Shown here: piece after piece, positions 11,713-15,140 of the stretch
Layout: each line of letters begins with the position of its first letter
Numbering within the stretch: the stretch's first letter is position 1
Assembly: GCA_001802375.1 (NCBI GenBank)
Contig: MGXK01000093.1
Span: forward strand, 2,051 to 37,691
DNA length: 35,641 nt
Origin: Gammaproteobacteria bacterium RBG_16_51_14
Lineage (GTDB): Bacteria > Pseudomonadota > Gammaproteobacteria > Eutrophobiales > Eutrophobiaceae
Reading direction: 5' to 3'
Notes under the pieces: generated by a model
What the model saw: only the letters and a program-made list of their open reading frames with translations
Told to the model about the DNA's origin: nothing
Database searches by the model: none
Program-made: the position numbers and the translations under genes

Positions 11713-12638
11713 CATGCCAGCAGTGGCTGGCGACGCCGGTAGCAGACATCATGAGCCACCCCGCAACCCGTAATACAATCCTTGTTGAATTCGCGGAGCT
11801 GCTGTCCCGACAGGTATATGGAGGTGAACAATATCTCATCCGGTTATTTGCGCCCGGGACCGCGGCACGGGCCCGGCCCGGCAGTTTCGTACACCTGCAA
11901 TGCGATCCGGCATTGCCCATGCGCCGCCCCTTTTCGATCATGCGGGCCAGCCCGGATGAGGGCTGGATCGATATCCTGTTCAAGGTCTGTGGCACAGGTA
12001 CCCGGTTGCTGGCGGCACGTAACAAGGGAGATGTGATCGATCTGCTGGGACCCATTGGACAGCCATTCAAATCTGCCCGTTATCGTAAACGGCCACTCCT
12101 GATCGGTGGTGGCGTTGGTATCCCGCCGATGATCTTTCTGGCCGAACAGGTAAGGAAAAATAATCACGGGATCAGCCCTCTCGTATTGATGGGCTCGGAA
12201 ATCCCCTTTCCCTTTCAGACCAGGCCGTCCCAGATCATACTGCCGGCCATGCCGAATGAGGTCATTGCCACCATGCCATTACTGGATGACTGGGGGATAG
12301 CGTGCCGTCTGGCCAGTCTGCAGGGCTATGCGGGCTGTTATGATGGTTATGTCACCGATCTGGCCAGGTACTGGATAACACATCTGGACCCGGACCAGAG
12401 AAATGAGATCGAAATCTTTTCCTGTGGCCCCATGCCCATGCTTGCGGCGGTCGCGAAACTTGCCCGGGATTTCAACCTGCCGTGCCAGGTATCCATGGAA
12501 GAGTATATGGCGTGTGGCGTCGGCGGTTGTGCCGGGTGCACGGTACGTGTCGAAACCGGAAATGGACCTGCGATGAAGCGGGTCTGCGTAGATGGCCCGG
12601 TGTTTGATGCCGCCAGTGTTTTCCCCGTTCAGAAGTAG
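11709..12638 (+). CDS. pyrK: PyrK-like dihydroorotate dehydrogenase electron-transfer subunit, orphan
   Basis: This is a ferredoxin-reductase-type flavoprotein. It has the FAD motif RRPFSI (72-77), the nucleotide-binding loop LLIGGGVGIPPM (130-141), the CGPMPML motif (239-245), and a C-terminal [2Fe-2S] cysteine set C269, C274, C277 and C293. This is the PyrK domain order. PyrK normally channels electrons from class 1B PyrD to NAD. No pyrD lies nearby, and gammaproteobacteria usually have quinone-linked class 2 PyrD. The 309 residues exceed the common 250-260. The ATG at 11709 overlaps the pyrX stop as ATGA. A second ATG at 11751 is possible and would give 295 residues. The partner is unknown, so the symbol reflects family only. 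Confidence 0.85.
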   Translation: MTCQQWLATPVADIMSHPATRNTILVEFAELLSRQVYGGEQYLIRLFAPGTAARARPGSFVHLQCDPALPMRRPFSIMRASPDEGWIDILFKVCGTGTRLLAARNKGDVIDLLGPIGQPFKSARYRKRPLLIGGGVGIPPMIFLAEQVRKNNHGISPLVLMGSEIPFPFQTRPSQIILPAMPNEVIATMPLLDDWGIACRLASLQGYAGCYDGYVTDLARYWITHLDPDQRNEIEIFSCGPMPMLAAVAKLARDFNLPCQVSMEEYMACGVGGCAGCTVRVETGNGPAMKRVCVDGPVFDAASVFPVQK

Positions 12639-12687
12639 GCTGAATAAGCCGGATCTACCGCATTTCTGCTGCGCTGGTAACATCGGT

Positions 12688-12852
12688 TTCGCCTCGCACG
12701 GCGAATCACTTTTTTCTGGAAAAAAGTGACCAAAAAAGCCTTCCCCCGATATCGTGTCCTGCGGATACCCTCGCATGCTCATGATTTTTGCAGGTCGCGC
12801 AAACAGGACTTCCTGTCCTGGTTGCGCTCATCGGAACATCCCTGTTCCAATG
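12688..12852. repeat. Composite hairpin repeat element
   Basis: Four stems follow one another. TTCGCC/GGCGAA spans 12688-12705. TCACTTTTTTC/GAAAAAAGTGA, with 11-base arms and a two-base gap, spans 12706-12729. GCGCAA-CAGGAC paired with GTCCTG-TTGCGC spans 12797-12827. GGAACA/TGTTCC, with an outer CAT/ATG pair, spans 12829-12852. The order matches a dispersed intergenic repeat I recall from many beta- and gammaproteobacteria. Any other copies would be outside this window. It lies after two converging genes and might also terminate transcription, but its origin and function are not known to me. Confidence 0.7.
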
Positions 12853-12924
12853 ACCTTCAAATCATTCACCTGCTCGGCACGATATAAGGGGGATTGATCA
12901 AGGAGGGTCAGAGAACTTGAAATG

Positions 12925-12992
12925 GTCATGTCATTTGTTATTTGTCATTGGTCATTCGTCATTCGTCAATTGACCATTGACTACTGACCAAT
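12925..12992. repeat. Degenerate heptanucleotide tandem repeat
   Basis: After a partial GTCAT unit, the units GTCATTT, GTTATTT, GTCATTG, GTCATTC, GTCATTC, GTCAATT, GACCATT, GACTACT and GACCAAT follow in exact register. The seven-base period is clear in the left units and fades to the right. The array ends four bases before the receptor stop codon. Such arrays can vary in copy number between strains. Confidence 0.8.
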
Positions 12993-12995
12993 CAA

Positions 12996-15140
12996 TCATT
13001 GATACCGGATGGATAACCCTGCATGAATATTCAATTCCGGCGCTGTATCAAAGTATCGGTGACGGGATTCATTTACCCTGATGTTACCGGTGTATTTCTG
13101 GTCAAACAGATTGTTGATCCCGAAGAAGGGGGTGAACTCGATCTTGCCACCGGTTTTCGCGGTATATCCCATCCTGAGATTGGCGAGCGTGTAATCATCT
13201 GCTGCCTCACTTTGCGGAATGAGGGCGCCAAAATCATCAACAAAGGCATTATTCACGAGTACTTCGTCCACAAACTGGACATCAAAGACGCTGAAAAAAC
13301 CCGCTGGATGGTGGTAGGCAAATTCGGCAAATCCCGTGTGCACAGGTACGCCCGGTATTCTTTCGCCGGCAAAGGATGTCCCCGCAATCACCAGGGTATC
13401 AAATTCAAAGTCCGAGTAGGTATAGGCAAGGGAAACATCAAGGCCGGGCAGGGGGCGAAATGTCAGCCCGGCCTCGATACCATTCCGTGTCGTCTCACCT
13501 GCATTGCTGAAAAATGTTGAGCCGCCGAGATTGGTGCCGGCCGGCAGCAATTCATCAGTAACATCAATGGTAAACAGCGATAATTGGTAACTGGCATTCC
13601 CGGGCAGCAGGCCCTTGACACCTGCTTCATAATTGGTTGCCGTTTGTGAATTGAGTGTTGTGTTGAATCCGCCCGGCCCTGTTGTCGATGCAAACTCACG
13701 GGTACTGGGTGTTTCGAATGATTTCGAGATGTTGCCATAGAGATGGATGCCATCGCGCAGTTTCCAGAGCAGACCGGCCTGGGGGCTCCACTCCTTGAAT
13801 GTCGCACTGCCCGACTGATCAGCATCAGCAAGAAAACGATCATTGAATTCAAATTCAACCTCGTCATAACGCACGCCCAGGGTCAGCTCCAGATTGTCCG
13901 TAATGCTGAATTCATTCTGGAGATAAATTCCCCAGTTAAAAACATCTTCGTCCTGATTCAGAACCAGCGGTCCTATAACGGAACTGTCTCTGTTATTGGT
14001 AAAATTTTTCCGGTCATCCATTTGTGAATCGATATCAAAACCGGTTGTCAGGCGATTCCGATGACCGGCCATCCGGTCACTGAAACTGTATTGAAGTCCA
14101 CCCCCCACAAAGACACGATCAATCACGATAATACCGCCCGTGCTGATAGGGGCCCCGGTCGGAAGGTTGGCATTGAAATCACGAAAGACATAATAGTTAC
14201 GGGCGGTGATCTCGTGTTTTTCACCAATCGCCTTGCGATAGATGAGACCCACTTGCTGCTGCGCCACCGATTCATCCGCACCAAATCGGACGTTGTTTCG
14301 CTGGGCATCCCTGGGGTCCGGCCGGTATACCGTACAGAATGCAGAAGCGGATTTGGGACTGCATAAACCGCCCGGGTCTTCCGCTTTCGGTGAATCGACG
14401 ATATTGGCTGTCAACGTCAGATCGGATGAGTCATCAATATCGTAGCGTAGCTTGGAATTCAACAGGATGTTTTCCGTCTCACTGTGATCACGATAGCCTT
14501 CGAGTTCCAACCGGGAGAGATTGACGAGATAGTTCAGTGCATCCTTTTGGCCGCCGGTCTTTACCTGATATTGAAAGAGATCATTTGAGCCGACGGTATA
14601 ACGGCCTTCAATAAACGGGGCGTCAACAGGCCCGTCTTCGGTATAGATATTAATGACACCCCCCGAGGCCGCACCATAGATGGAGGAGGAGGGGCCGCGG
14701 ATGACTTCAATGTGATCGGTCGAGCCAATATCGATACTGTCAACGCCCCCCTGTCCATCCGGGAGCGTATTGGGGATGCCATCGACATAGAGCTTGACAC
14801 CGCGAATGCCGAATGTCGAGCGGGAACCAAACCCACGGATGGATACGCGTAAATCCTGGTTGAAGTTATAACGGTTCGTCATGAACAGTCCCGGGATCTT
14901 GGCAAGTGCCTCATCCAGTCCGAGTCGCTGCGTACCCAGTTGTATAGCATCGATACCGACATAGCCGACCGAGGCCGGTACCTCATAGAGCGATTTTTCT
15001 ACACGCGTTGCACTGACGGTGATATCCCCGAGCTGCTTGTAAGCCGACCCGGTAAAATCTTCCGCAGACGCATTGATACCAAACCCAATGCCGCTGAAGG
15101 CTAAAAAAAGGACACCCTTGTTCAAAAAATATTTTCTCAT
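12996..15140 (-). CDS. TonB-dependent outer-membrane receptor, YncD/PqqU-like
   Basis: This is a 714-residue outer-membrane receptor. A signal peptide of about 26 residues ends ...GINASA. The sequence GDITVSATRVEKS marks the start of the plug, which carries SIRGFGSRSTFGIRGVKLYV, DGIPNTLPDGQGG and VIRGPSSSIYGAASGGVINI. The beta-barrel follows, including NLFDQKYTGNIRVNESRHRY near the end. The plug and the final-strand motifs closely resemble E. coli YncD (PqqU), which imports pyrroloquinoline quinone, as I recall its sequence. A cysteine pair in EDPGGLCSPKSASAFC may form a loop disulfide. The last residue is Q rather than the usual aromatic. It starts 49 bases after the third pilT-like gene. 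The substrate remains an inference. Confidence 0.88.
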   Translation of the reverse strand: MRKYFLNKGVLFLAFSGIGFGINASAEDFTGSAYKQLGDITVSATRVEKSLYEVPASVGYVGIDAIQLGTQRLGLDEALAKIPGLFMTNRYNFNQDLRVSIRGFGSRSTFGIRGVKLYVDGIPNTLPDGQGGVDSIDIGSTDHIEVIRGPSSSIYGAASGGVINIYTEDGPVDAPFIEGRYTVGSNDLFQYQVKTGGQKDALNYLVNLSRLELEGYRDHSETENILLNSKLRYDIDDSSDLTLTANIVDSPKAEDPGGLCSPKSASAFCTVYRPDPRDAQRNNVRFGADESVAQQQVGLIYRKAIGEKHEITARNYYVFRDFNANLPTGAPISTGGIIVIDRVFVGGGLQYSFSDRMAGHRNRLTTGFDIDSQMDDRKNFTNNRDSSVIGPLVLNQDEDVFNWGIYLQNEFSITDNLELTLGVRYDEVEFEFNDRFLADADQSGSATFKEWSPQAGLLWKLRDGIHLYGNISKSFETPSTREFASTTGPGGFNTTLNSQTATNYEAGVKGLLPGNASYQLSLFTIDVTDELLPAGTNLGGSTFFSNAGETTRNGIEAGLTFRPLPGLDVSLAYTYSDFEFDTLVIAGTSFAGERIPGVPVHTGFAEFAYHHPAGFFSVFDVQFVDEVLVNNAFVDDFGALIPQSEAADDYTLANLRMGYTAKTGGKIEFTPFFGINNLFDQKYTGNIRVNESRHRYFDTAPELNIHAGLSIRYQ

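Follow-up and report, generated by a model that had tools for sequence, protein, structure and literature searches.

The element of the window

The window considered here is the whole stretch of 35,641 nucleotides from Gammaproteobacteria bacterium RBG_16_51_14. Between a PyrK-like gene that ends at 12638 on the plus strand and a convergent TonB receptor gene on the minus strand (12996-15140) lies a branched element of about 12680-12895. The stretch 12660-12880 folds at -80.1 kcal/mol, compared with a mean of -53.25 for shuffled sequences (z -6.78), and none of the 200 shuffles was as good. The sole match above the cut-offs in an Rfam scan of the whole window was TwoAYGGAY (RF01731), at 12735-12900 on the minus strand, with 51.9 bits against a gathering threshold of 43. 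The parts of the element are listed in Table 1.

A sequence-only reading of this DNA had described four successive stems at 12680-12860. The stems and the strong fold are borne out; the span is not, because the outer stem of the element, CCCCCGATATCGTG...CACGATATAAGGGGG, closes at about 12895. The description as hairpins in a row holds for the first two, which lie side by side, whereas the remainder forms a single branched structure built on a three-way junction. The 11-base perfect arms around two bases at 12706-12729 are present (TCACTTTTTTC-TG-GAAAAAAGTGA), as is the two-part stem of 12 pairs at 12797-12827, which consists of 6+6 pairs (GCGCAA/TTGCGC with CAGGAC/GTCCTG). That reading did not include the TwoAYGGAY core, the facing pairs, the pseudoknot and triple helix seen in relatives, or the limit between conserved and variable content, all of which are described below. 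It had also mentioned frequent mis-annotation of such sequences as small proteins, which finds no support here. The only long ORF across the element (167 aa, 12279-12782, minus strand) has no Pfam or NCBIfam match at E up to 1, and a protein-coding reading was rejected. A relative's copy matches 16 plasmid records, and in each of them the best place carries no annotated feature in a gene table that is incomplete.

Between the element and the TonB receptor gene, 12930-13002 contains AT-rich TCATTGGTCATT repeats and an inverted repeat with 23-nt arms (83%). The same arrangement occurs beside the second host copy, on contig C9.

Table 1. Parts of the element, with positions in the window.
Feature	Position	Strand	Basis
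Hairpin hp1, TTCGCC...GGCGAA; terminator-like read from the left, then TCACTTTTTT	12688-12705		Terminator scan, covariation
Hairpin hp2, pyrimidine/purine stem S2, 11 pairs	12706-12729	-	Sequence; loop pairing covaries in long-loop relatives
GGCTTTTTTGG, candidate third strand of triple helix (loop L1)	12730-12740	-	Three-strand covariation in relatives
TwoAYGGAY core, made up of an outer stem, an interior loop with tandem GA, a three-way junction carrying two GGA hairpins, and a small side hairpin	12743-12891	-	Rfam RF01731, model R1, covariation
Side hairpin P5, GTATCC-GCA-GGACAC	12754-12768	-	Covariation
Hairpin P4, loop ACAGGAAGT, GGA at 12811-12813, 28 nt from first GGA	12797-12827	-	Sequence, copies
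Hairpin P3, loop ACAGGGATGT, GGA at 12839-12841	12828-12853	-	Sequence, CsrA consensus, GGA across copies

Core fold and folding strand

The covariance model R1 gives the window copy, which is one of the 14 used to build it, 160.3 bits on the minus strand versus 22.7 on the plus strand. In a plain MAFFT alignment of these 14 copies, 25 of the 56 pairs changed on both sides and 91.5% of the cells were paired, compared with 83.4% in shuffled alignments. The 118 copies fitted to the model showed both-sided changes in 54 of the 56 pairs and 88.4% paired cells (63.9% shuffled), in an alignment that is biased toward the structure. The covariation of the stems among the relatives, a check that the sequence-only reading had proposed, is therefore very strong. 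The TwoAYGGAY strand has 320 G-U cells and 126 A-C cells, and this excess identifies it as the folding strand, although by itself it does not separate RNA from single-stranded DNA.

The sequences of the stems turn over wholesale while the loops of P3 and P4 retain GGA (108/118 and 112/118 copies, respectively; both loops in 104/118). GGA is present in the small hairpin P5 in just 34 of 117 copies, and P5 enlarges as one unit in the relatives, e.g. GTCCCCAAATAAAAACTTGGGG. The window copy has the two GGA-loop hairpins on the junction that characterize RF01731, as well as the tandem G-A pairs (CC-GAG...CGAG-GG), which are largely kept in the relatives. Tandem G-A pairs in the stem are a named feature of TwoAYGGAY in the available part of PMC4333381. 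As for the literal AYGGAY motif, the loops of the window read AGGGAT and AGGAA, and ACATGGATGT is found in some relatives.

Outer module, pseudoknot and triple helix

The hairpins hp1 and hp2 are placed on the outer side of nearly every copy with enough flank. The segment 12688-12740 corresponds to a conserved module, which takes the form, in many relatives, of an H-type pseudoknot that contains a covarying triple helix. In the copies with a long hp2 loop, this loop pairs with the bases adjoining the core and forms the stem S1 of the pseudoknot. The copies with a two-base hp2 loop, including that of the window, are a short-loop variant with no S1 stem. The pseudoknot was aligned in 37 copies chosen for the long loop, of which 3 were left out. 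The outer module of the 34 selected copies was 95.0% paired (80.4% shuffled), with double changes in 4 of the 6 pairs of S1; among the five measures applied, the number of pair types was not above that of the shuffles.

The pyrimidine run that lies parallel to the purine arm of hp2 fits as a third strand (U.A or C.G) in 257 of 272 cells, compared with 45-58% at eight slid registers, and 250 of 272 cells fit when both the third strand and the Watson-Crick pair are required. T.A-T and C.G-C exchange with each other in 4 of the 8 triple columns. Seven of the 34 module copies, of one type, have the triple broken at one column pair. From 115 modules, 93 could be parsed for triple runs, of which 74 were distinct. 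In a permutation test on these 74, which is inflated by the relatedness of the copies, the mean run was 6.81 versus 5.55 (sd 0.10), and none of 1000 permutations reached as high. An antiparallel pairing of the third strand with S2 was rejected for its poorer fit (mean run of 5.7 versus 6.8 for the parallel triple).

Two terminator-like sites were found in 12500-13100, where shuffled sequences contained a mean of 0.8. On the plus strand, hp1 and its T-tract form such a site, whereas none was found on the minus strand of the same stretch. The T-tract begins 4-5 nt after hp1 and is also constrained by the S2 stem.

Copies and distribution

A DNA search of the host genome (2.67 Mb, 154 contigs) retrieved the further copies that the sequence-only reading had suggested looking for: a second near-complete copy with 76% identity on contig C9 and a partial one, restricted to the outer module, with 93% on contig C97. 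In the latter (L191, G000:C97:16544-16610), hp1-hp2 at 93% is followed by a different sequence in the place of the TwoAYGGAY core, and no core was found there with a second model, R2. DNA matches at E up to 0.001 occur in 6 of the 58 genomes, host included, and three genomes of one genus carry 6-14 each. Searching the host genome with the Rfam family gave three places, none of them the window copy; because this approach undercounts, our own model was used. R1 gave 109 matches in 16 of the 53 genomes of the host's bacterial family, six of them in the host, with the provisos that its 14 copies come partly from genomes later searched and that the search filters lose weak matches. R2 gave 125 hits, of which 122 on 90 loci were kept; the three dropped were weak, and one of them was the opposite-strand image of a retained hit. 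The proposal of a dispersed, structured intergenic repeat is thus supported by the copies in the host and its relatives. Since the copies are dispersed and their stems covary, a single-copy sequence lacking covariation, which had been named as the case against it, is not what is found.

A pattern for the outer module retrieved at least 80 loci from named genomes, mostly Beta- and Gammaproteobacteria, in agreement with the presence in many proteobacteria that the sequence-only reading had mentioned. Among the matches listed are Xanthomonas, Pseudomonas, Methylobacter, Thiobacillus, Variovorax, Aggregatibacter and others. The module is present in the 80 named loci by construction, because they were fetched with a pattern derived from it. 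The triplex signature has 80 hits in these loci and none in one Markov resample, and R2 has 45 matches. Fourteen close facing pairs were seen, one of which is a different G+C-rich repeat. The other 13 are tight facing pairs with modules 383-468 bp apart, too close together to accommodate much cargo. Xanthomonas also has three close pairs placed back to back (L194, L200 and L230), 115-180 bp apart.

A second class of core shares the outer module but has loops that, judged by eye, lack the GGA pattern (Thiobacillus, Variovorax and Aggregatibacter); GGA loops are therefore not essential to the wider family. Tight facing pairs with a GUYYGAG...GCGAGUU core and no Rfam match at cut-off were seen at L203, L234, L243 and L268 (Thiobacillus, Aggregatibacter and Variovorax). 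As a hint that the element acts as RNA on the expected strand, the left core of an Aggregatibacter tight pair coincides, on the same strand, with the Rfam sRNA family AaHKsRNA22, which we take to be derived from RNA sequencing. No paper naming AaHKsRNA22 was found in the open-licence literature.

A more uniform version with the outer module was seen at 15 viewed loci (L045-L068) of G045, a genome from another family. The inner-side end GAGTAGTTAC occurs in 7 of these loci, with its complement on the other side in 2, possibly a transposable form. Palindromes that resemble Neisseria dRS3 are often found just outside the element: GTCATTCCCGCGnnGGCGGGAATCCAGT and similar ones (L146, L147, L168 and L129), and GTCATACCGG..CCGGTATCCAGT in L031 and L020. 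Carriage by phages was considered and discarded, as a relative's copy (L120) had no match in 50,697 phage records. Among plasmids, the same query matched 16 records, none over more than 30% of its length.

Facing pairs and their cargo

Adjacent copies within 2.5 kb are arranged minus-plus in 26 of 27 pairs, with the cores facing each other and the outer modules pointing away; the remaining pair is minus-minus and none is plus-minus. Unpaired copies, including that of the window, amount to 70 of 122, and contig ends explain only part of them. The 27 facing intervals under 4 kb are 40-3134 nt long, and in 26 of them the G+C content is below that of the flanks. One ORF of at least 80 aa is present in 16 intervals, two in 3, four in 2 and none in 6; three intervals, of 40, 48 and 120 nt, contain nothing or almost nothing. 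ORFs from different intervals, 30 in all, showed no similarity to each other at E up to 0.001. Pfam, run on 20 of the 30, gave 7 with a hit: a DpnII-MboI restriction enzyme, DUF4238, HNH, PIN (below the cut-off), DUF2059, GDSL (at the cut-off) and DUF4145. PADLOC, run on 10 of the 30, gave 3 hits.

The nearest outer gene points toward the element at 81 of 109 ends. Of the 19 facing pairs whose two sides could both be typed, 12 are flanked by convergent genes and none by divergent genes; in 7 others at least one side could not be typed. A promoter-like sequence located 16-41 nt inside the core (types GTGGCAT..TATCCT or GTGGACA..TATAAT) is directed inward at 14 of 116 ends (L114, L124, L127, L129, L130, L132, L146, L149, L153, L155, L156, L157, L164 and L168) and outward at 0 of 116, by a pattern that was written after viewing examples.

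Boundary of variable content

The element is a boundary between conserved chromosome and content that differs among species. By their outer flanks, 23 groups of ends are common to several genomes (four loci are counted at both ends). Over the first 900 nt inside, 36 comparisons gave no similarity in 23, some in 9 and too short a sequence in 4. In successive outer windows of equal size, long similarity was found in 30/30, 27/29, 25/28 and 21/24 comparisons, and any similarity in 30/30, 29/29, 26/28 and 22/24. Because the nearest outer flank served to define the groups, a fair control is given by the two outermost windows. In the first inner window, long similarity falls to 0/27 and any similarity to 8/27; the values for the next two are 6/19 and 4/17 (long), and 7/19 and 5/17 (any).

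A single site was read base by base. It lies between genes that we take to be yggT (with yggU in some genomes) and xthA, and is occupied by facing pairs whose cargo differs: G018 has a 140-aa ORF with no Pfam hit, and G005 a DpnII-like restriction enzyme. The site has no element in G029 and G069, from the genus of G018, nor in G020, from the genus of G005. In G069 an apparent scar joins the left hp1 to the outer half of the right hp1. No target-site duplication was found at this site.

At the locus of the window, pyrK has a match in 48 genomes, and 30 pyrK loci were examined. In 4 of these 30, pyrK and pilU are about 9-137 nt apart. In three other genomes a TonB homologue (39-40%) follows pyrK without an R2 hit, and the TonB receptor therefore need not be cargo. 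Among the 30 loci, an element immediately beside pyrK is seen only in the window; G029 has a weak hit (27.7 bits) some 750 nt downstream, and in G005 and G068 elements are found deeper within the pyrK-pilU interval. The copy of the window is thus an unpaired half-element within an interval of variable content.

Relation to CsrA

The SELEX consensus of CsrA is RUACARGGAUGU, as given in the available part of PMC7652899. The P3 loop of the window, ACAGGGATGT, is identical to its last ten positions (ACARGGAUGU). A match of at least 9/10 to these positions was found in 35 of 118 copies on the TwoAYGGAY strand, 0 of 118 on the other strand and 2 of 118 shuffled copies. In the window, 28 nt separate the two GGA; among 104 copies the spacing has a median of 28 and a range of 21-40, which falls within the 10-63 nt that a CsrA dimer is reported to bridge (PMC7652899, available part). 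On the other hand, most SELEX hairpins in the same part of that paper have four or fewer contiguous pairs, which counts against CsrA choosing stems as stable as those here (6-9 pairs). Binding of TwoAYGGAY by CsrA was proposed earlier from motif matching, according to the available part of PMC4333381, and Rfam places TwoAYGGAY in clan CL00106, also that of CsrB. The csrA gene is present in the host and in 52 of the 58 genomes overall; being nearly universal, its presence tests nothing. From motif, spacing and strand fit, the element is probably a CsrA-binding 3' end.

Proposed mechanism and alternatives

The best explanation, which we hold to be somewhat probable on balance, is that the elements are dispersed, RNA-coding ends of exchangeable gene cassettes, placed mostly downstream of genes and with a predicted CsrA-binding 3' end. 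What was observed is the fold, the dispersal, the covarying triple helix in relatives, the arrangement in facing pairs and the position at the edge of variable content; from this we infer the exchange of cassettes as units, the roles as terminator and 3' end, and the binding of CsrA. Accessory genes would be exchanged as cassettes between facing element ends; as a first guess, by analogy with the minimal mobile elements of Neisseria, this may occur by homologous recombination. Transcription entering from outside would stop at hp1 with its T-rich tract, whereas transcripts leaving the cassette would carry the TwoAYGGAY-triplex structure as a stabilised 3' end, whose two GGA loops could hold one CsrA dimer. 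In the window, the TonB receptor gene on the inner side would receive the element as its 3' end.

Part of this evidence can be read otherwise. The elements might be bidirectional terminators or insulators located at the 3' ends of genes and unrelated to CsrA, the accessory genes between them being tolerated because read-through is blocked. Such a role, possible though doubtful in our judgement, would suit the outer genes that point toward the element (81/109 ends), the convergent genes around 12 of the 19 typed pairs and the terminator-like hp1 and T-tract of the plus strand. However, the minus strand of 12500-13100 yielded no terminator-like site, the T-tract starts 4-5 nt past hp1 in a place also fixed by S2, and a terminator needs neither the conserved GGA pair nor the triple helix. 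We consider it rather improbable that the fold acts as DNA, i.e. that each half-element is a recombination site read as a folded single strand, like attC, with loops that contact a putative recombinase and an incidental likeness to RNA. The kept structure with sequence turning over, as in attC sites, and the mutually unrelated ORFs of the intervals agree with this, and triple helices and G-T pairs form in DNA too. Yet the ends face each other, whereas the order of attC sites is direct; the CsrA motif is in the loops of one strand only, and an Rfam sRNA family covers the Aggregatibacter core.

A tentative alternative is a non-autonomous transposable repeat (MITE/REPIN-like) without host function, the facing pairs and cargo being by-products of insertion. 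Dispersed copies in 16 of 53 genomes, the tight facing pairs of other Proteobacteria with no room for cargo (383-468 bp) and the shared GAGTAGTTAC end in 7 of the 15 viewed G045 loci speak for it. The positions common to species and genera (23 groups of ends) speak against it and indicate that any movement is slow, and no duplication was seen at the single site read base by base. Mobilisation of the REP/RAYT type was rejected: Y1_Tnp is present in 26 of the 53 family genomes, in assemblies that may be incomplete, and does not track the copies, with no match in G005, G018, G029, G067, G069 and G072, each of which has 4-7 copies. No recombinase for the movement of the element was found with Y1_Tnp, the family searched. 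As to MITE features, shared ends were seen in G045 only, and target-site duplication was absent from the one site read. The preferred reading remains that of cassette ends.

Comparison with known systems

The core is filed as TwoAYGGAY, with which it has in common the core fold, the two GGA-loop hairpins and the tandem-GA stem. In contrast to TwoAYGGAY as described, the core is here linked to hp1 and another module, occurs at dispersed places and forms facing pairs around genes in relatives. As far as the available parts of the papers go, the family appears in a 2010 list as a probable RNA with no assigned role, and a later proposal, based on motifs, is that CsrA binds it; PMC2864571, PMC4333381 and PMC11701678 list it or propose this binding, and these parts mention no added module, dispersal or facing pairs.

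Like the element, the sponge RNAs CsrB/Rsm (clan CL00106) have GGA in hairpin loops. CsrB gathers many CsrA sites in one sRNA gene, whereas the usual copy here has just two GGA loops and many copies are dispersed. In integrons, attC sites have a conserved fold with variable sequence and follow each other in direct order. Their cassettes share with the present ones the accessory genes beside such a fold, but the ends described here face each other (26/27 close pairs) and are dispersed at many sites. REP/BIME repeats are dispersed inverted intergenic elements able to affect transcripts, and so are the Correia elements (CREE), as far as the available parts of their descriptions go. In contrast to both, the present element is a branched fold of about 240 bp with conserved loops, and it brackets cargo genes.

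The arrangement is likened to the minimal mobile elements of Neisseria, in which different whole-gene cassettes lie between conserved genes (PMC3082526, available part). Different whole genes between the same conserved neighbours are likewise seen at the yggT-xthA site of G005 and G018 and in the boundary comparison. The cassette ends here, however, are one structured family, whereas the definition in the available part of PMC3082526 names none. No prior account of paired elements of this kind was found in the accessible parts of the open-licence literature, and the combination of TwoAYGGAY core, module and facing cassette ends is undescribed as far as the literature searched goes.

With these results, TwoAYGGAY gains a larger structure, which in relatives includes a pseudoknot and a covarying triple helix, and a genomic role at the boundary of exchangeable genes. 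If the preferred reading is right, the element would provide a sequence handle for small accessory genes, including restriction and defence-like ones, at predictable sites, and would link gene capture to post-transcriptional control; it may tie accessory genes to a global RNA-binding regulator. More speculatively, and with rather low confidence, these elements could define a distinct class of mobile gene cassettes in Proteobacteria in which facing CsrA-binding triplex RNA elements provide a promoter directed inward, a terminator on the outer side and a 3' end that is both stabilised and regulatory. Were this so, any captured gene would be placed at once under the Csr network of its host.
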